Assembly: GCF_021729015.1 (NCBI RefSeq)
Contig: NZ_JAJQQZ010000001.1
Span: 1,240,001-1,304,000, forward strand
Direction: 5' to 3'
Source of the DNA: Halobacterium rubrum
Lineage (GTDB): Archaea; Halobacteriota; Halobacteria; Halobacteriales; Halobacteriaceae
DNA: 64,000 nt
Shown: one piece after another, positions 9,405 to 31,575 of the stretch
Numbering within the stretch: the first letter of the stretch is position 1
Layout: the number at the start of each line of letters is the position of its first letter
Program-made: the position numbers and the translations under genes
The notes under the pieces: generated by a model
The model's database searches: none
What the model saw: only the letters and a program-made list of their open reading frames with translations
What the model was told of the DNA's origin: nothing

Positions 9405-9444
9405 CCGTGGGGGTGGCGGACTAGAGAGTCAGCGTCGGAAGAAG

Positions 9445-9527
9445 CGGTGAGGCTGGGATTCGAACCCAGGAGGCATGACGCCACCGGTTTTCAAGACCGG
9501 CGCAATAGGCCGCTCTGCCACCTCACC
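9445..9527 (-). tRNA. tRNA-Ser (anticodon TGA)
   Basis: The minus strand has acceptor GGTGAGG/CCTCACC and anticodon stem CCGGT/ACCGG with loop CTTGAAA (anticodon TGA). The variable arm is long, as in class II tRNAs. The T arm is CTGGG TTCGAAT CCCAG, and the discriminator is G, typical of archaeal tRNA-Ser. Confidence 0.96.
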
Positions 9528-9583: not shown

Positions 9584-9612
9584 GGCCCCCACCCCGGATT
9601 TCGAGTGTTCTG
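9584..9612 (-). repeat. ORB-like repeat L1
   Basis: Minus strand begins CAGAACACTCGAAATCC and runs into GGGGTGGGGGCC. It shares the 14-mer CAGAACACTCGAAA (inverted) with the copies at 11177 and 11312. Confidence 0.8.
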
Positions 9613-9645
9613 TCCCGGCGGTGGGAGGCCTGGGCGGGAAGGTGG

Positions 9646-9675
9646 GGACGGCCACCCCGATTTGCAAGTGTTCTT
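9646..9675 (-). repeat. ORB-like repeat L2
   Basis: Minus strand begins AAGAACACTTGCAAATC, followed by GGGGTGGCC. It pairs best with the copy at 11239, which has the same ACACTTGCA variant. Confidence 0.78.
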
Positions 9676-9837
9676 GGTGAACGACTGTCGGGTGAGTCGG
9701 GAGAGATAGCCGGATACAAACGACGCCGCCGCGAACTCGCGACTGACTGCGTGTAAAGGCTCTTTCTGGGGGTGTTCTCCGGTCACGACAGCCCGCCGAA
9801 AAGGAGAGAACTCCCGAAACAGCCGAAACTCCAGAAC

Positions 9838-9850
9838 CAAACTATTATTG
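9838..9850 (+). promoter_or_regulatory. TATA-like promoter of orc1/cdc6
   Basis: AACTATTATTG is an AT-rich island about 28-38 nt before the ATG at 9878. It is inside the repeat-bounded origin, so initiator binding could also affect this promoter (inference). Confidence 0.55.
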
Positions 9851-9877
9851 TGGGGTGGCTGGAAGGTAGCCGTAGCG

Positions 9878-11071
9878 ATGAAGACGCCGTTCCGGGACCG
9901 CGTCGAGCTGTTCGCGAACAAGGATGTCCTCAAGGACCACTACGAGCCGGAGGAGATCCTCGAACGCGACGAAGAGATCGACCAGTACGCCAACGCGCTC
10001 CAGGACGTCGTCGACGGCTGGGAGCCCGACAACGTCTTCGTCTACGGGAAGACCGGCGTCGGGAAGACCGCCGTCACCCGGTACATGATGGACGCCCTGG
10101 AGTACGAGGCAGAAGACCGGGACGGCGTCGACAGCGTCGCGAGCGTCGAAGTGAACTGCCACCACCACCCGTCGTCGTACCAGGCGGCGATCGCGCTCGT
10201 GAACGAGCTCCGCGCGGACACCGACCGAGACCCACTGACCACGGGGCTCTCGACGTCGGACGTGCTGAACGCGCTGTTCGACGAAATCGAGGAGCGCGAA
10301 GGGACAGTGCTCATCGTCCTCGACGAGATCGACAACCTCGGCGACGACGACATGCTGCTGTACCAGCTCCCGCGCGCGAAGACGAACGGCAACATCGAGG
10401 ACTCGCAGGTCGCGGTCGTCGGCATCTCGAACGACTACACGTTCCGCAACGACCTCTCGCCGAAGGTCCAGGACACGCTCTGCGAGCGCGAGATCAAGTT
10501 TCCGCCGTACGACGCGAACGAACTCGTCACGATTCTCGACGACCGCGCCGACCGCGCGCTCAGCGACGGTGTGCTCGACGAGGGAGTCATCCCGCAGTGC
10601 GCCGCGCTCGCTGCTCGCGACCGCGGGAGTGCGCGGCAGGCCATCGACCTCCTGCGGGAGTCCGTGAACGTCGCCATCGAGGACGAGCGCGAGACCGTCA
10701 GCGAGGCGGACGTGGACACGGCGGTCGAGCGCGTGGAGCGGGGGCGCATCAAAGACTCCATCAAGGACCTCACGACCCACGGCCAGTACGTCCTGCTGGC
10801 TGTCACCCAGACGGCCGTCGCAGGCGACACGCCCGTCCGTGCGAAAGAGCTCTACGAGGTGTACGAGGACGTCGCCGCCGAGTACGCCTCGGAGCCGCTC
10901 AGCCAGCGCAGCGTCCACGACCACCTCAACGACCTCTCGATGCTGGGGTTCCTCCGCCAGCACGACCGCAACTACGGCCGCGGCGGCGGCCAGTTCTTCG
11001 AGTACGAACTCGACGTCGACGCCGCGATGGTCCAGGAAGCCATCGCGGACGCCGACGACCCTGTGGCCTGA
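9878..11071 (+). CDS. orc1: Orc1/Cdc6 replication initiator
   Basis: An AAA+ origin-binding protein of 397 aa that recognises ORB repeats and starts chromosome replication. Walker A is FVYGKTGVGKTAVTRYMM (about residues 54-71), and Walker B is VLIVLDEIDNLGD. Sensor 1 is VVGISNDYTFRN and sensor 2 is RDRGSARQAIDLLR. The C-terminal winged helix (about 290-385) contains YASEPLSQRSVHDHLNDLSMLGFL. The ATG at 9878 starts MKTPFRDRVELF, a usual beginning for haloarchaeal Orc proteins. The extra ten residues upstream overlap the promoter and were rejected. Its ORB-like repeats on both sides suggest it serves this origin. Confidence 0.95.
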   Translation: MKTPFRDRVELFANKDVLKDHYEPEEILERDEEIDQYANALQDVVDGWEPDNVFVYGKTGVGKTAVTRYMMDALEYEAEDRDGVDSVASVEVNCHHHPSSYQAAIALVNELRADTDRDPLTTGLSTSDVLNALFDEIEEREGTVLIVLDEIDNLGDDDMLLYQLPRAKTNGNIEDSQVAVVGISNDYTFRNDLSPKVQDTLCEREIKFPPYDANELVTILDDRADRALSDGVLDEGVIPQCAALAARDRGSARQAIDLLRESVNVAIEDERETVSEADVDTAVERVERGRIKDSIKDLTTHGQYVLLAVTQTAVAGDTPVRAKELYEVYEDVAAEYASEPLSQRSVHDHLNDLSMLGFLRQHDRNYGRGGGQFFEYELDVDAAMVQEAIADADDPVA

Positions 11072-11176
11072 CCACTCCGACCGGTTCTCCTGCTCTCCTA
11101 CCCGACTTCCGTATGTCGACACTCCTGCTCGACTGTCGTGCGTTCACAGTCTCGCCCAACTGCCGTGCGTCCACAG

Positions 11177-11205
11177 CAGAACACTCGAAAGATGGGGGTG
11201 GGCCG
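11177..11205 (+). repeat. ORB-like repeat R1
   Basis: CAGAACACTCGAAAGAT then GGGGGTGGGCCG, on the plus strand about 105 bp after orc1. Opposite in orientation to L1 and L2. Confidence 0.8.
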
Positions 11206-11238
11206 CTCCCGCAGGTCCGTCCCTCCACACCGCTCTCC

Positions 11239-11268
11239 GAGAACACTTGCAGAGTGGGGTGCCCCCGG
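11239..11268 (+). repeat. ORB-like repeat R3 (variant type)
   Basis: GAGAACACTTGCAGAG then TGGGGTGCCCCCGG. It shares the ACACTTGCA variant with L2, so the two variants are placed on opposite sides. Confidence 0.72.
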
Positions 11269-11311
11269 AACCACCGGGTGCGCGCTCGTCGGCCAGTGGC
11301 GTCTCCGCCAG

Positions 11312-11341
11312 CAGAACACTCGAAATTCGGGGCCGGGGTGG
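11312..11341 (+). repeat. ORB-like repeat R2
   Basis: CAGAACACTCGAAATTC followed by GGGGCCGGGGTGG. This is the outermost right copy and shares 15 bases with L1. Confidence 0.8.
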
Positions 11342-11372: not shown

Positions 11373-12146
11373 CTACTCCAGTGTGAGCGTCGGTTCGCTG
11401 CTGTCCCCGTCTCCGCCTTCGACGCGGAGGCCGAGGTCCTCCACGAGCGCCGTCGTGTACGCCGGGACCAGCCGGCTCGCGGCCCGGCGCGCCCGGAGTT
11501 CCGACACGAGCGTCCGGAGGGCGCCAGCCGACTCTACCCGACGGCGTCCCGGGAGGAAGTCCACGTCGTGGCCGGCGTCGACGGCTCGCGCGTTCAGGTT
11601 CTCGAGCGCCGGCGCCGACAGCGCGTTCTCGAAGTCGACGGGTTCGGTGAACCCAGCGAAGTAGATGTCGCCGTCGTCGGCGGGCCCGAGCACGACCTCG
11701 CTGCGGCGGAGCTTCATCGCGGCGCTGTCGACGTCCTTCCGGAGCAGCGTCGGCGCGTCGGGCTCCAGGACGGCAGCGGACTGCACGCCCTCGGTCTCCA
11801 GCAGGTGCGTGACCGTGTTCCCGACGCGCGCCGAGCGGGACGACCCGACCTGCACCTCCACGCGGACGTCCTCCAGCTGGTCGTCGTCGAGGACGTCCGC
11901 CACGAGCGCCCGCACTTCGGCTTCGGCATCGGCGCCCGCGGGAACGTGCTCGTCGGGGAGCTGGTCGTCACTGCGGTAGTTCACGAGCAGGTCGCCGCCG
12001 CTCTCGGCGACGGCGAGCAGGAGGTCCGACACCATCGCCTCGTAGAGCCGGGTCGCCTCGGCGGCGGACAGCGGCGTCTCGGCGGGGAGGTCGGGCAACA
12101 CGAGTCCGTCACGCGGCGGGTCCACCAGTACGGCGACGACGGTCAT
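11373..12146 (-). CDS. DUF2064-like conserved protein next to the origin
   Basis: A 257-aa soluble protein. It begins MTVVAVLVDPPRDGLVLPDL and has ATRLYEAMVSDLLLAVAESG then VRVEVQVGSSRSARVGNTVTHLL. The order resembles DUF2064, a group related to GT-A glycosyltransferases, but the usual DxD metal site is not evident to me. The stop codon is 32 bp from the last ORB-like repeat, so the gene is transcribed toward the origin. The ATG at 12146 was chosen. An upstream ATG (12254) adds 36 unconserved residues. No function can be given, and the closeness to orc1 may or may not be meaningful. Confidence 0.75.
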   Translation of the reverse strand: MTVVAVLVDPPRDGLVLPDLPAETPLSAAEATRLYEAMVSDLLLAVAESGGDLLVNYRSDDQLPDEHVPAGADAEAEVRALVADVLDDDQLEDVRVEVQVGSSRSARVGNTVTHLLETEGVQSAAVLEPDAPTLLRKDVDSAAMKLRRSEVVLGPADDGDIYFAGFTEPVDFENALSAPALENLNARAVDAGHDVDFLPGRRRVESAGALRTLVSELRARRAASRLVPAYTTALVEDLGLRVEGGDGDSSEPTLTLE

Positions 12147-26553: not shown

Positions 26554-27330
26554 ATGGACGCCGACGAGCCCGAGATTCTCGTGACGAACGACGACGGTAT
26601 CGACGCGCCCGGCATCCGCGCGCTCGCCGAGGGCCTCGAAGCGGTGGGCAACGTCACCGTCGTCGCGCCCGCGGACAACCAGAGCGCGTCGGGGCGCGCG
26701 ATGTCGAGTGAGGTCGCCGTCCACGACCACGACCTCGGGTACGCCGTCGAGGGGACGCCCTCGGACTGTATCGTCGCCGGGCTGGAGGCGCTCGGCCCGT
26801 ACCCGGACCTCGTGGTGTCGGGCGTGAACGAGGGCGGCAACCTCGGGATGTACGTCCTCGGGCGCTCCGGCACCGTCAGCGCGGCCGTCGAGGCGGCGTT
26901 CTTCGGCGTGCCGTCGATAGCGGTCTCGATGTACATGCGTGAGGACCAGTTCGGTGAGCCGACGGAGGTCGCGGACTACGAGCACGCCGTTGACGCCACA
27001 AGGCACCTCGCGCGGGAGGCTGTCGACGCCGGCGTCTTCGAGACGGCCGACTACCTGAACGTCAACGCCCCCCACCCGGAGGCCGACGCCACCGGCGAGA
27101 TGGTCGTCACGCGGCCCTCCCACGCCTACGACATGACCGCCGAGCAGAACGGCGACACGGTCACGCTCCACGACCGGATGTGGGACGCGATGGCGACCGG
27201 CGACGTCCCCGACCCCGAGGGTACCGACCGCCGCGCCGTCCTCGACGGCCACGTCTCCGTCTCGCCGCTGACCGCCCCGCACTCGACCGAACGCCACGAG
27301 GCACTGGACGCGCTCTCGGCCGACTTCTGA
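26554..27330 (+). CDS. surE: 5'/3'-nucleotidase SurE
   Basis: Metal-dependent phosphatase acting on nucleoside monophosphates, 258 aa. The N-terminal LVTNDDGIDAPGIRALAEGL carries the conserved Asp pair. APADNQSASGRAMS holds the Ser and Asn ligands, and VVSGVNEGGNLGMYVLGRSGTVSAA is the typical SurE signature. It has its own start (ATG 26554) with no close upstream gene other than the decayed remnant on the opposite strand. Family identification is clear. The physiological substrate is not. Confidence 0.94.
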   Translation: MDADEPEILVTNDDGIDAPGIRALAEGLEAVGNVTVVAPADNQSASGRAMSSEVAVHDHDLGYAVEGTPSDCIVAGLEALGPYPDLVVSGVNEGGNLGMYVLGRSGTVSAAVEAAFFGVPSIAVSMYMREDQFGEPTEVADYEHAVDATRHLAREAVDAGVFETADYLNVNAPHPEADATGEMVVTRPSHAYDMTAEQNGDTVTLHDRMWDAMATGDVPDPEGTDRRAVLDGHVSVSPLTAPHSTERHEALDALSADF

Positions 27331-27518
27331 GGGCGCCGCGGCGAACAGGTGGCCGCGACCGGGACGCGGCTCCGGGGCTCGCGGACGACCAGCGGTCTAC
27401 AACTGGCAGCTCACGGGCTACTACCGGGCGACCAGCCGGCCAGTAGTCGGCGGGAAGCGGCCACAGCGTGGGCAATTTGGTAATCTGTCACACTCCCGTA
27501 GTGGTGGCTGTACCCGCC

Positions 27519-27950
27519 ATGTCCCAGGAGACCAGCGACACCCCCGGCACGCCGACCGACCGAACCAGCGCGACAACCGACACCGGCCTCGAACCGAACG
27601 TCGCCGGCGCACTCGCCTACGTGCTCGGCATCCTCACCGGCGTCCTCTTCTTCGTGCTCGAACGAGACAACGAGTTCGTGCGCTTCCACGCCGCACAGAG
27701 CATCGTCGTCTTCGGCGCGTTCTTCGTCGCGAGCGTCGGCGTCAGCCTGCTCTCGACGCTCACCTCGGCGGGCCTCGGCGGCGGCGGTGGCTTCTTCGTC
27801 TTCGGCCTGCTGTCGCTGTTCCTCTCTCTCGTCTGGTTCGCCGTCGCCGTCGCCGGGTTCGTGCTCTGGCTGTACCTGATCGTGCGCGCCTACCAGGGCG
27901 AGACGCCGAGAATCCCGGTGGCCGCCGGCATCGCCGACGACCTCGTCTGA
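27519..27950 (+). CDS. DUF4870-type small membrane protein
   Basis: A 143-aa protein with a disordered Thr/Asp-rich N-terminus (1-35) and about three hydrophobic segments: ALAYVLGILTGVLFFVLE, FHAAQSIVVFGAFFVASVGVSLL and FVFGLLSLFLSLVWFAVAVAGFVLWLYLIV. The RFHAAQSI motif and Gly-rich loop (GLGGGGGFFVFG) are typical of DUF4870, a family of unknown function. The ATG at 27519 was chosen, with an AT-rich element (TTGGTAATCT) around 30-40 nt before it. It is the last chromosomal gene before the island bounded by chorismate mutase 3'-end repeats. Confidence 0.82.
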   Translation: MSQETSDTPGTPTDRTSATTDTGLEPNVAGALAYVLGILTGVLFFVLERDNEFVRFHAAQSIVVFGAFFVASVGVSLLSTLTSAGLGGGGGFFVFGLLSLFLSLVWFAVAVAGFVLWLYLIVRAYQGETPRIPVAAGIADDLV

Positions 27951-28007
27951 ACGCACGCCGTCGGCGACGCCACCAGCACGTCGCCGGTCGTCGGCAGCGG
28001 GGCGCGA

Positions 28008-28043
28008 CGCCTACCGCGTTTCCCGCTGCTCGATTTTGTTCAG
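28008..28043 (-). repeat. attachment-like repeat A (copy of chorismate mutase 3' end)
   Basis: Thirty-six bases corresponding to the last codons (LNKIEQRETR) and TAG of the chorismate mutase gene, differing at one base from copy C at 30455. Its left side shares further homology with copy B: the next bases read GATAGCCGAAATCC here and GGTAGCTGAAACCC there. It may be the original distal end of an integration site (inference). Confidence 0.85.
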
Positions 28044-28145
28044 ATAGCCGAAATCCACCATACACACTACTGAAACGATCTGGTGGGAGCCATCAAGAAC
28101 GATCTAGTGGTAAGATTCTTTGTCTATGGTGTCGTATCCTCATCT

Positions 28146-28391
28146 ATGTCAACAGAGACGGATGGCCAGGGACGGCTGTACATCCCGAAGGAGGTGCGGG
28201 AAAAGTACGGCCAGAAGTATCACATCGTCATGTACGAGGACAGAATCGAACTGATACCGGTCGCAGACGATCCACTCGCCGCTGTCCGCGAGGCCGCAGG
28301 CGAACTTCACGACTCGTCCGTCGAGAAGATCCGGGAGGACATCGAGGCCGAGGCGAAAGACGAGGCTGAGGAAGTCGGCGGCGACAGATGA
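28146..28391 (+). CDS. AbrB/MazE-like antitoxin (VapB type)
   Basis: An 81-aa antitoxin. TDGQGRLYIPKEVREKYGQKYHIV matches the swapped-hairpin DNA-binding fold of AbrB-like antitoxins. The rest is an acidic helical tail (EKIREDIEAEAKDEAEEVGG), likely the part that binds the toxin. The gene ends in an ATGA overlap with the PIN-domain gene, the usual order of antitoxin first, which allows coupled translation. The TATA-like TAAGATTCTTTG is about 25-36 nt before the ATG at 28146, and binding there could autoregulate the pair. It lies inside the repeat-bounded island. Confidence 0.9.
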   Translation: MSTETDGQGRLYIPKEVREKYGQKYHIVMYEDRIELIPVADDPLAAVREAAGELHDSSVEKIREDIEAEAKDEAEEVGGDR

Positions 28392-28774
28392 CGGTGTACG
28401 TCGAGACGGACTTCCTGCTCGCACTCGCCAAAGACTCCGATTGGTTACAGGGCTCCGCTGAGGACGCCCTCGCCGAGTACGACGTCGAGACGTCGCCGTT
28501 CTCGTACCTCGAACTCCTCCTCGCCCGGGAACGCTACGAGTTCGATTACGTGCCGCTGGTGGCGAACCTGCTCGAACTCGTCCCCGTGCGGGACGAAGAA
28601 GAGAAACAGGTCGTGCTGAAAGCCGTCAACTACTACGACGAGGGAATGACGCCGTTCGACGCGTTCCACGCGGCGAAAGCGGAAACGCGAGGGATGGACG
28701 TACTCTCCTCCGAGAGAGACTACGAAGACGTCGAGGTGGAACGAGTGCCACTCGAACCGACCGACGACGAGTAA
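28388..28774 (+). CDS. PIN-domain ribonuclease toxin (VapC type)
   Basis: A 128-aa PIN protein that would cleave RNA. The acidic residues expected in the active site are seen in VYVETDFLLAL, SYLELLLAR, TPFDAFHAAKAE and LSSERDYED, so the site looks intact. It starts within the last codon of the antitoxin (ATGA). In haloarchaea the target is not known from the sequence, and many VapC toxins cut tRNA or rRNA. The unit ends 17 bp before attachment-like copy B. Confidence 0.9.
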   Translation: MTVYVETDFLLALAKDSDWLQGSAEDALAEYDVETSPFSYLELLLARERYEFDYVPLVANLLELVPVRDEEEKQVVLKAVNYYDEGMTPFDAFHAAKAETRGMDVLSSERDYEDVEVERVPLEPTDDE

Positions 28775-28790
28775 CGCAGATTCCGTTGCC

Positions 28791-28826
28791 CGCCTACCGC
28801 GTCTCCCGCTGCTCGATCTTGTTCAG
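28791..28826 (-). repeat. attachment-like repeat B (copy of chorismate mutase 3' end)
   Basis: Differs from copy C by one base over 36 and extends toward copy A's flank (GGTAGCTGAAACCC). It separates the two units of the island. After it, 28848-28935 is AT-rich with TATA-like tracts (CTATAATAGGAG, CATTTAAGAACC) but no plus-strand gene. Confidence 0.85.
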
Positions 28827-28965
28827 GTAGCTGAAACCCATACTGCGTAGCGGTGAAATCAAACCCCGATTATGATTCTATTCCGGCGAATACGCGGTTG
28901 AAAACGCTATAATAGGAGTACATTTAAGAACCTCGCCGTATCCTGTAGTCGCCAGTCTCGACCGG

Positions 28966-29382
28966 CTAGCGCGTGTCGAACGAATCGATCACGTCGCTCG
29001 TTGAATACGTCTCGACGAGGTCCTGTTCGTCGAAATCGGAATCATCGCTCCAGATGTCGGCGTCGCTAGCTAGGGCACACGCAACGTACAGCACGTCGTC
29101 AGGATCGCTCTCACCAATCGCGCTATTGGCCTCTTCAATGTAGGGATAGAACTCGTCTGCGGGGACGACCTCGATGTACTGGAACAAAAGGTCGATGAAC
29201 TGCTGGACGCGCTGAGGTCTCATCCCGGACTTCTCGACAATGAGGTCTTCGTAGTTCCCGATTTCGTCGTGGACGAACGTGGGCGTCAACAAGTCGGGTT
29301 CGAGCGTGACGATGAGCTCACGCGTTTTCGAATCAGCAATGAGCGCAGAAATGACGACGTTGGCGTCGATAACCAGCTTCAT
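28966..29382 (-). CDS. PIN-domain putative toxin
   Basis: A 138-aa PIN protein, of the type with N-terminal MKLVIDANVVISALIADSKT. The other acidic positions may be in FVHDEIGNYED, SDPDDVLYVACALAS and WSDDSDFDEQDLVETY. This resembles the PIN proteins described as COG1569-type. It begins 7 nt after the end of the ribbon-helix-helix gene on the same strand, so the two form a unit. It is read toward copy B. The lower GC and extra Ser/Asp-rich codons differ from chromosomal neighbours, which suggests transfer. Confidence 0.85.
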   Translation of the reverse strand: MKLVIDANVVISALIADSKTRELIVTLEPDLLTPTFVHDEIGNYEDLIVEKSGMRPQRVQQFIDLLFQYIEVVPADEFYPYIEEANSAIGESDPDDVLYVACALASDADIWSDDSDFDEQDLVETYSTSDVIDSFDTR

Positions 29383-29389
29383 CCAGGAG

Positions 29390-29620
29390 CTACTCCGATT
29401 GTTCTTCGACGCGCTCGCGTCCACGCTCGTTGATTCGATCCGCAATCTCCGTGACGTCGCTCTCAGTGAGCTCGCTTTGGCTAGTGAGTTCGTCCATCAC
29501 TTCGAGGGCCTCGATTTTCTCCTGGATGGCCTGTCGGGTAACCTCACTCCAGTTGATCTCCGGATGTTTCTCCATCCGGTCTTTGAGCTCGTCGTCTACG
29601 TTGACGGTGATACTTGGCAT
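29390..29620 (-). CDS. ribbon-helix-helix-like antitoxin
   Basis: A 76-aa protein starting MPSITVNVDDELKDRMEKH, then PEINWSEVTRQAIQEKIEAL, a RHH pattern of short strand and two helices. The C-terminal half is acidic and helical and probably holds the PIN toxin. The ATG at 29620 is chosen over the ATG at 29671, since the latter adds MVDPPQNTIFCIYKFSG, not typical of RHH proteins. TATA-like AT-rich bases 29632-29650 are upstream. This is the first gene of the pair, with the PIN gene 7 nt after it. Confidence 0.86.
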   Translation of the reverse strand: MPSITVNVDDELKDRMEKHPEINWSEVTRQAIQEKIEALEVMDELTSQSELTESDVTEIADRINERGRERVEEQSE

Positions 29621-29818
29621 ACCGGAAAATTTGTAGATACAGAATATTGTGTTTTGCGGTGGATCGACCACCTAGAGAACCGTCAAGCCCCACATTGTTT
29701 GGCTACGCACCGCTTCGAACTCTGATTTTGATTTCCAGCTATAAAACGTCGAAATGACCGGTTAGTAGGTCTGCGATTTTGCCACACAGTTTTCATCTAT
29801 GCGGAGATGTAATCTGGT

Positions 29819-30043
29819 ATGGTGACTCGTCCGTCTCTCCGAGGATTTGGCGCAGCCCTCGTTGTTGGTGTCGCAATCGTCTGTATGGGGGTGATTGCGC
29901 TCGGCTTCCTCATGCCCGAGCGACTCTTCGAGAGTACTGTGGGATTAGTCGCCTTCTTCGCCGCCGGCCTCCTAATGGTGGTCTGCGCAGTCGTTGCGAA
30001 CCTCTACGACCTCCGAGGGATTCTCCACAACGAGTTCGGCTAA
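29819..30043 (+). CDS. small two-helix membrane protein in the island
   Basis: A 74-aa protein with helices GFGAALVVGVAIVCMGVIALGFLM (residues 9-32) and VGLVAFFAAGLLMVVCAVVANLYDL (about 41-65), plus a short cytoplasmic tail. No family is recognised. The gene ends TAA directly beside the stop of the following minus-strand gene, with no bases between. Both have the AT-rich codon use of the island. It could be a toxin-like, holin-like or superinfection exclusion protein, but that is only speculation. Confidence 0.65.
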   Translation: MVTRPSLRGFGAALVVGVAIVCMGVIALGFLMPERLFESTVGLVAFFAAGLLMVVCAVVANLYDLRGILHNEFG

Positions 30044-30235
30044 TCACTCACTGAACACTCGCAGTCCAAGATAGTACGTGCCGCCGATGACAACCCCAGA
30101 AATAGCCGCTGTGCCTGCCGCCGCAACCGCCCCCGATGCATAGTTCAACGCGAAGGTGACAATAGCAACGACGACCGCGCCAATCAGTGCTTGTCCAAGA
30201 AGAGACTGCCCCTCCAACCACGCGTTAATCCCCAT
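30044..30235 (-). CDS. small Gly/Ala-rich membrane protein in the island
   Basis: A 63-aa protein, MGINAWLEGQSLLGQALIG followed by AVVVAIVTFALNYASG and TAAISGVVIGGTYYLGLRVF. It has two potential membrane helices and Gly/Ala motifs like those of holin-like proteins, but no family is recognised. It is exactly convergent with the previous gene, stops abutting. The start at 30235 begins within an AT-rich zone (30236-30300). The upstream extension to 30451 adds residues antisense to nothing known and has several unusual residues, so it was not used. Confidence 0.55.
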   Translation of the reverse strand: MGINAWLEGQSLLGQALIGAVVVAIVTFALNYASGAVAAAGTAAISGVVIGGTYYLGLRVFSE

Positions 30236-30454
30236 AATTACCCTCTCACAGCGCACTCCGCTTAATCGTTCGTCTATACTTAGCGAGATCTGGTCATCTA
30301 TACTGAATTCGGATTGCTTGAAACGGTGGTCGTGGCCATGTAGCAGACGAACATCGAATCTTTCGGCTGCTCGTCGAGTCCGGAACGATAGAGCAACTTC
30401 CGGAAGAGGATTTATTTCGTCGGGGCGAAGTATACGCCCTGAAACGCCCAAATT

Positions 30455-30490
30455 CGCCTACCGCGTCTCCCGCTGCTCGATTTTGTTCAG
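30455..30490 (-). repeat. attachment-like repeat C (within the chorismate mutase gene)
   Basis: Covers the end of the chorismate mutase gene, including its TAG stop. Copies A and B each match it at 35 of 36 positions, with one silent change each in the LNKIEQRETR reading. Confidence 0.85.
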
Positions 30491-30724
30491 TTCGATCAGC
30501 AGCCGGAAGATTGCCTTCACGAGGTTGTCGTCGACGCCGAACGCCGCGGCGTTCTCGCCGGCGCGCTCCATTACGGCCTCCTCCTGGGACTCGTCGGTCG
30601 TCGACAGCCCCTGCTCGGCTTTCACGTCGGCGATGGTCTCGGCGACGTACGTGCGTCGCGCGATGAGGTCCACTATCTCGCGGTCGATGCTCTCGATCTC
30701 CTCGCGGAGTTCGTCCAGTGTCAT
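30458..30724 (-). CDS. aroQ: chorismate mutase (AroQ class)
   Basis: Rearranges chorismate to prephenate at the start of Phe and Tyr synthesis. It has 88 aa, usual for an all-helical AroQ. LDELREEIESIDREIVDLIARRTYVAETIADVKAEQGL holds the conserved Arg of helix 1 and the Lys of KAEQG, and LVKAIFRLLIELNKIEQRETR is the last helix. ATG at 30724 overlaps the shikimate kinase stop (ATGA), so the two are coupled. The 3' end is the target-like site of the neighbouring island and its sequence is still complete there. Confidence 0.9.
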   Translation of the reverse strand: MTLDELREEIESIDREIVDLIARRTYVAETIADVKAEQGLSTTDESQEEAVMERAGENAAAFGVDDNLVKAIFRLLIELNKIEQRETR

Positions 30725-31575
30725 GTCGTCCGGGCCCCGGCCAGTTGCGTCGTCGTCACCCTGACCGTCCCCGGGTTCTCGTGCCATAGTGTAGCCACCT
30801 CCTCGATGCCGTCCTCGTCGCCGACCGCGACGTAGCTCGGGCCGGTGCCGGACAGCGAGACACCGGCGGCGTGCGGGAGCGCCACGACTGCGGGGTCCGT
30901 CGGGAAGTCCAGCGCGGCGCAGAACGCCAGCCCATTGACCGTCATCGCCGTGCCGTAGTCGCCGGCCGCGGCGAGGTCAGCGACGTGGTCGGCTAGCGGC
31001 GCGACGCGCTCGCACCGACTGACGTCGGCGTCCGCGGAGTACGCGCGCTCGGGGGGCGTCCAGACGGCGGCGTGCCAGTCGACCTCGTCGCGGAAGACGA
31101 GTTCGTCCTCGCGGTTGTCCGTCAGCGTCAGGCCGCCGAGCATACTCGCCGTCGCGTCGTCGAACGCGCCCGTGACGGTGACGCCGGCGTCCCGTGCCGC
31201 CTGCACGCCGAGTCGGGCTGCGTCGACGCGGTCGACGTCCCCAGCGGCGCCGAGCGCGTCCAGCGTCGCCAGCACCGTCGCGTTCGCCGCCGCACTCGAA
31301 CTCTTCAGCCCCGCCGCGAGCGGGATTTCGCCGTCGGTGCGGACGTGGCCGCCCTCGCCGTCCCCGAAGCGCTCGGCAGTCAGGGACACGCAGCGCTCCA
31401 CGAGGCCGGTGTCGGCGTCCGGGTGGTCGGCGACCTCGCCGGACACCCCGCGCTGTTCGGGTTCCAGCGACACCGACGCCTCGACGTCGAAGTCCAGCGC
31501 GAACGCCGACCCGACGCCAGTCGCCAGCGCGTTCAGAACCGTGCCCGCGGCCGGCGCCACAGCGCGCCCGTCCAT
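30721..31575 (-). CDS. aroK: archaeal shikimate kinase (GHMP type)
   Basis: Phosphorylates shikimate, but belongs to the GHMP kinase family and not to bacterial AroK. Length is 284 aa. The ATP motif is IPLAAGLKSSSAAANATVLATL (Pro-x-x-x-Gly-Leu-x-Ser-Ser type). VSLSGTGPSYVAVGDE is the third conserved motif of GHMP kinases. The ATG at 31575 (MDGRAVAPAAGT) was preferred. It precedes chorismate mutase with an ATGA overlap, a common order in haloarchaea. Divergent from the next gene. Confidence 0.94.
   Translation of the reverse strand: MDGRAVAPAAGTVLNALATGVGSAFALDFDVEASVSLEPEQRGVSGEVADHPDADTGLVERCVSLTAERFGDGEGGHVRTDGEIPLAAGLKSSSAAANATVLATLDALGAAGDVDRVDAARLGVQAARDAGVTVTGAFDDATASMLGGLTLTDNREDELVFRDEVDWHAAVWTPPERAYSADADVSRCERVAPLADHVADLAAAGDYGTAMTVNGLAFCAALDFPTDPAVVALPHAAGVSLSGTGPSYVAVGDEDGIEEVATLWHENPGTVRVTTTQLAGARTT

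Follow-up and report, generated by a model that had tools for sequence, protein, structure and literature searches.

The window (the whole 64,000-nucleotide stretch of Halobacterium DNA analysed here, G000:C1:1240001-1304000) carries an Orc1/Cdc6 initiator gene, orc8, which is enclosed in its entirety by inverted arms of ORB repeats of two sequence classes. The five repeats are real and far above chance, and matches across the genome and the family show that they are specific to the orc8 gene. We infer that this is probably a self-contained accessory or conditional Orc1/Cdc6 replication locus with titration and autoregulation, a reading that we hold with moderate confidence and in which Orc8 would bind the boxes, fire the locus, be titrated by the boxes and limit its own synthesis. 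The layout of ORBs around orc8 is already known, as it has been published for H. salinarum. New here are the genus-wide pattern of two ORB classes, the 9-bp ORB-half-like iterons before the orc8 TATA box, an orphan box at thiI that is lost together with orc8, and the clean absence of the ORB-orc8-ORB block from two nested genomes.

The product of the gene matches Pfam PF22703 and PF09079 and NCBIfam TIGR02928 (466 bits), and resembles the structure 2qby_A (Cdc6-1; E 4e-58). It has both the length (397 aa against a threshold of >300 aa) and the AAA+ and winged-helix domains asked of the Orc protein beside a haloarchaeal origin. The orthologue in H. salinarum (L019) is 95% identical and has the same chromosomal neighbours. 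The orc8 knockout primers of PMC1906834 match L019 at the start (CGTCTTCATCGCTTGCCGAGA) and stop (GCGACCGTGTAGACCCCG) of the gene, and thus, by its sequence, the gene in the window is orthologous to orc8 of Halobacterium NRC-1. The named relatives, 92-95% identical, belong to the genus Halobacterium. Assignment to the orc10/oriCa family was considered and is ruled out by the primer match and by the identity values. Plasmid-borne Orc relatives reach at most 50.5% identity to the orc8 protein, below the oriCa family criterion of at least 80% Orc identity given by Wu et al. 2012 (PMC3528665); this comparison is to plasmid-borne relatives rather than chromosomal oriCa members. Between the ORBs no convincing gene other than orc8 was found.

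The initial annotation had placed five ORB copies around the gene, and all five are found at those positions and on those strands (Table 1). The pattern AGAACACTYGNRNNNNGGGG has 6 exact matches in the whole genome (3.07 Mb, 7 contigs), 5 of them at the orc8 locus, and the reversed-pattern control has 0 exact matches in the whole genome. Allowing up to one mismatch gives 12 matches genome-wide and up to two gives 31, against 4 for the reversed control at up to two mismatches. The inverted arms are also recovered by a motif-independent repeat search, which pairs 9586-9612 with 11312-11338 (89% complementary) and 9650-9683 with 11231-11264. Many copies away from any orc gene would have spoken against the annotation; the genome-wide search found no such scatter, but one conserved orphan copy does lie at thiI. 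The division of the five boxes into CTCGAA and CTTGCA classes is likewise real. The proposal that each side of the gene carries at least one box of each class describes the window genome but not H. salinarum, where the downstream boxes are CTCGAA only. A weaker minus-strand copy claimed near 9764-9782 has 4 mismatches to the pattern, was not found at the matching position of the nearest relatives and is probably a chance resemblance. H. salinarum (L019:4375-4394) and the closest relative, G003 (L028:181-200), have a further minus-strand ORB-like box, CTAACACTTGAGACTTGGGGTGGGG, 0.6-1.3 kb upstream of orc8; it was not seen in the window genome.

Table 1. Features of the orc8 locus (positions are those of the window)
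Feature	Position	Strand	Remarks
tRNA-Ser(tga)	9444..9527	-	ARAGORN; left neighbour of the module
ORB L1	9592-9611	-	class CTCGAA; outer position; G-string runs outward to 9586
ORB L2	9655-9674	-	class CTTGCA; inner position
Four tandem ORB-half-like units, 8-9 bp	9808..9842	+	GAACTCCC GAAACAGCC GAAACTCCA GAACCAAAC; directly upstream of the TATA-like box
TATA-like box TATTATT	9843..9849	+	~30 nt before the start codon; TATTAT-like in orthologues
orc8 orthologue, Orc1/Cdc6 initiator, 397 aa	9878..11071	+	AAA+, lid and winged-helix domains
ORB R1	11178-11197	+	class CTCGAA
ORB R3	11240-11259	+	class CTTGCA
ORB R2	11313-11332	+	class CTCGAA; outer module end
DUF2064 gene	11373..12146	-	Pfam PF09837; right neighbour, convergent with orc8

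Orthologues of orc8 (91-98% identity) are found in 10 others of the 13 Halobacterium genomes and are missing from G007 and G012. Across the genomes that carry orc8, identity is 76-90% for thiI and 66-84% for the neighbouring DUF2064 protein, so orc8 is unusually conserved where it is present. All 11 orthologous loci possess two upstream boxes, both on the minus strand, the outer being CTCGAA and the inner CTTGCA. Orthologues with an intact downstream side carry 2-3 boxes there, all on the plus strand, and the box nearest the gene is CTCGAA in nine of the ten such loci and CTTGAA in G001. Over the 11 loci (50 boxes) there are 25 CTTGCA, 23 CTCGAA, 2 CTTGAA and 0 CTCGCA, so that 48 fall in the two main classes; since these boxes are related by descent and are not independent trials, the Fisher value of 5.6e-12 only illustrates the coupling. 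Family-wide, each of the 14 genomes that have an orc8 orthologue also has matches to the pattern. Nine of the 12 genomes without an orthologue lack any match; of the other three, one retains boxes around what is left of an orc8 gene, one has boxes of its own at a homologous orc locus, and one has a single isolated match. The Halarchaeum genome G018 (L128:2240-3176) has a decayed orc8, of which only C-terminal pieces in two frames are left, between intact ORBs.

No plus-strand box lies upstream of orc8 in any of the 11 Halobacterium loci, and hence there is no upstream inverted ORB pair. The homologous orc locus of G023, from another genus, has minus- and plus-strand boxes upstream and more plus-strand boxes downstream, and one Halarchaeum has an upstream box on the plus strand. 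These arrangements suggest that Halobacterium may have lost a former upstream half.

The tandem units that precede the TATA-like box stand where that upstream half would be, and they recur at other orc8-type loci. The best self-match lag is 9 in 16 of 16 loci (tied with lag 13 in G016), with a shuffle p <= 0.012 in 15 of the 16, where the shuffles keep base content only and the orthologues are not independent. The units of G023 read GAACACTTA, which is the left half of that genome's own ORB. We infer a promoter function for the TATTATT box. No other 50-bp segment of the locus is as rich in AT as 9800-9849, with 58% against a window mean of 30%. This AT-rich iteron region could serve for unwinding, for autoregulation, or for both. 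Several other haloarchaeal orc promoters (L038, L040, L051, L053) also have 9-bp tandem repeats before the TATA box, with a different unit in each; such repeats may be common to orc promoters of haloarchaea in general. Elsewhere in the window, at 27000-31000, G+C falls to 55-64% compared with ~70% around it, which possibly marks acquired DNA.

The conserved orphan ORB lies outside the window at G000:C1:1312712-1312731 (L022 5013-5032), upstream of thiI. The sequence RAACAYTYGMRRNNNGGGG has matches in all 11 orc8-bearing genomes and none in G007 or G012. The box itself is present in each of those 11 genomes ~50-70 bp upstream of thiI, where it begins 66-70 bp ahead of the start codon and shortly precedes a conserved stretch of the promoter, GCGATAGGTGTTTACT. 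G007 and G012 retain the promoter stretch and lack the box; this loss together with orc8 is a phylogenetic association with a single loss event. In a box-anchored alignment, identity between the two main clades is 97% over the 19 columns of the site and 33% over the 36 flank columns before it, the former value being somewhat inflated because the anchoring word CGAGTGTTC is part of the 19 columns. The other half of the box, CCCCGGTCTG, is common to 10 of the 11 genomes. Ten of the orphans belong to a third class, CTCGCA, and that of G004 is CTCGAA. The thiI box is absent in Halarchaeum, although relatives of orc8 are present there. Orc8 is the likeliest reader of the thiI box, a predicted binding. 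Tentatively, and with rather more doubt than conviction, we suggest that Orc8 could be an initiator that doubles as a site-specific regulator away from the origin; the fixed-distance box, kept with orc8 and lost with orc8, would couple thiI, a tRNA-thiolation gene, to the level of the initiator.

Other off-locus candidates were examined. An orphan on the dph5 side (G000 C4:92798, G003, G006) falls within the coding sequence of a TrmO-like protein (motif DGTLAVRGVD), and C1:1086899 and the CTCGAARNCCGGGG-like sites (G002, G005, G008, G009, G011) lie in long open frames; all were rejected as coding coincidences. GAACACGTGCAAGACGGGG recurs across genomes, with overlapping open frames at the one copy examined. 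An intergenic ORB-like box was seen shortly 3' of the stop of a hydantoinase-like gene at G000:C1:1199533, G003:C1:2812259 and G004:C1:883463; the genes on its other side differ among the three genomes.

The module can be absent as a unit. In G007 and G012 the end of the DUF2064 gene comes immediately after the tRNA-Ser gene and the GAAACTGTCGTTGT element that flanks it, and everything from L1 to R2 is absent. A tree of thiI and DUF2064 places these two genomes, as sisters, inside the orc8-bearing group (support 99/98). The alternative, in which the 11 genomes with orc8 form a single clade, is rejected by an AU test (p 0.029). The nested position and the AU test thus favour, though not strongly, a single loss of the module over a late gain.

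The initial annotation called the locus an origin of replication, and here the evidence divides. In its favour are conserved two-class G-string ORBs in the adjacent intergenic regions on both sides, specific to the neighbouring orc gene; against it stand the missing upstream inverted pair, an orthologue that is ARS-negative and non-essential, and a weak GC skew. In none of the 11 Halobacterium orc8 loci does a single intergenic region hold an AT-rich element between inverted ORBs, the arrangement used as a criterion in PMC4595724. Wu et al. 2012 (PMC3528665) describe ORBs in both intergenic regions flanking Halobacterium orc8 and say that the marker-frequency data of Coker 2009 show orc8 origin activity. 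According to Berquist et al. 2007 (PMC1906834), the NRC-1 orc8-proximal region gave no autonomous replication and an orc8 knockout was viable. These published data on the orthologue conflict. Dormant haloarchaeal origins have been described (Yang 2015, PMC4595724), and a downstream ORB array is known to act negatively (Wu 2014, PMC3936714). The outcome of the skew-inversion check that the annotation had proposed depends on the scale. Computed on 327 kb (1.05-1.377 Mb), at three arm lengths and on one stretch, the step ranked at the 99.3rd percentile with 50-kb arms, the largest step lying at 1,250,900, but reached only 77% and 81% with 10- and 20-kb arms. Plus-strand skew around orc8 passes from slightly positive to negative, in the same direction as at orc7/oriC1. 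As support for an origin the skew is weak.

We propose that Orc8 most likely binds the flanking ORBs with its winged helix on GAACACTYG and its AAA+ motif on the G-string, by analogy with known Orc1-ORB complexes. L1 and L2 together with the AT-rich iteron promoter region would form the initiation or autoregulation side. The downstream R1/R3/R2 array most likely keeps Orc8 off the start site, in the manner of the ORB-rich oriC2D region at oriC2 of Haloarcula hispanica. With Orc8 held by the downstream array, initiation would be weak or conditional and tied to Orc8 dosage. The observations behind this accessory-origin proposal are the boxes, which are specific for orc8 and keep their order and classes across the genus, a module that is either present or cleanly absent as a whole, and the AT-rich iteron region. 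Several facts weigh against it: the upstream inverted pair is absent, unlike at oriC1 of the same genome, in G023 and in one Halarchaeum; PMC1906834 reports no autonomous replication and a viable knockout; the skew over 10-20 kb is unremarkable; and G007 and G012 live without the module.

Much of the same evidence would suit an Orc8 that is mainly a DNA-binding regulator, self-limiting and with at least one target away from the origin at thiI, at a locus that no longer fires in Halobacterium. The thiI orphan in 11 of 11 orc8-bearing genomes, its absence from the two that lack orc8 and otherwise conserve the thiI promoter, the 97% identity of the site between clades against 33% for its flanks, and the ORB-half iterons at the orc8 promoter all point this way. 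So do the missing upstream pair, the ARS-negative result and dispensable gene in NRC-1 (PMC1906834), and Sulfolobus Orc1-2, a non-initiator Orc1 that regulates transcription (PMC9738581). Set against these are the marker-frequency activity at the orc8 origin cited by Wu et al. 2012 (PMC3528665), the full set of initiator domains in Orc8 and the high rank of the 50-kb skew step. In addition, G007 and G012 are sisters, so orc8 and the thiI box were lost in what counts as one evolutionary event. We regard a mainly regulatory Orc8 as rather unlikely.

An ordinary, fully active bidirectional chromosomal origin initiating in the upstream intergenic region is improbable. It would account for the G-string ORBs, the AT-rich 9800-9849 segment and the adjacent orc gene, and it agrees with the skew step and with the view of the NRC-1 marker-frequency data taken by Wu et al. 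2012 (PMC3528665). Such an origin fits poorly with the absent upstream inverted ORBs, the ARS-negative orthologue, the dispensability of the gene and the loss of the module in two genomes. The block between tRNA-Ser and DUF2064 is precisely present or absent, and its edges coincide with the outer ORBs; this could also arise if the block were a mobile cassette with the ORBs as its terminal inverted repeats, its symmetry coming from mobility rather than replication. The different chromosomal context in Halarchaeum fits this idea, and Wu et al. 2012 (PMC3528665) argue that such origins move between haloarchaea. Yet the module has no transposase or integrase, no target duplication was seen at the junctions, boxes also occur inside the ends (L2, R1, R3), and the Halobacterium loci examined share one location. 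The empty sites are nested in the orc8-bearing group (AU p 0.029), which makes loss the simpler account, and we give a mobile cassette very little credence.

Haloarchaea have many Orc1/Cdc6 paralogues whose separate roles are unclear, and the orc8 locus offers a testable case: its boxes fall into two conserved classes, the module can be removed and has natural empty sites for comparison, and Orc8 has a predicted target outside the origin. As a viable NRC-1 orc8 knockout has already been published, gene regulation by an archaeal initiator can be tested. If the proposal is true, Orc8 would be an archaeal initiator that also regulates genes, as DnaA does in bacteria.

The orc8 locus of H. salinarum/NRC-1 has the orthologous gene (95%), the same neighbours and ORBs in both intergenic regions; it differs in having four boxes rather than five, and its downstream boxes, unlike those of the window genome, are not of both classes. 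The class order, the thiI box and the iterons were not found in the available text of PMC3528665 or PMC1906834, supplements aside. The Halobacterium orc10/oriCa family is similar in belonging to a haloarchaea-specific Orc clade with boxes on both sides of the gene, but orc10 is essential and orc8 is not. At oriC1-orc7 of the same genome (C1 ~107.7 kb, L023:6684-6923) the orc gene also sits beside G-string ORBs; these form a tight inverted pair, TCCACCTGAAACGAGGGGGTGGGGG, with 25-nt arms 190 bp apart, whereas orc8 has no such pair upstream and a different box sequence. Sulfolobus Orc1-2, the DNA-damage regulator (PMC9738581), is likewise an Orc1 paralogue with a proposed target box at an off-origin promoter, though from another lineage; for Orc8 a single conserved putative target was found. 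Haloarcula hispanica oriC2-cdc6E with oriC2D (PMC3936714) shares with orc8 the combination of boxes upstream of the initiator gene and an ORB cluster immediately after it (here R1, R3 and R2). It has 11 boxes in 722 bp compared with three here, and its negative control has been shown genetically, whereas at orc8 such control is suggested by analogy. The oriC2D downstream array is the closest tested parallel to the orc8 module.
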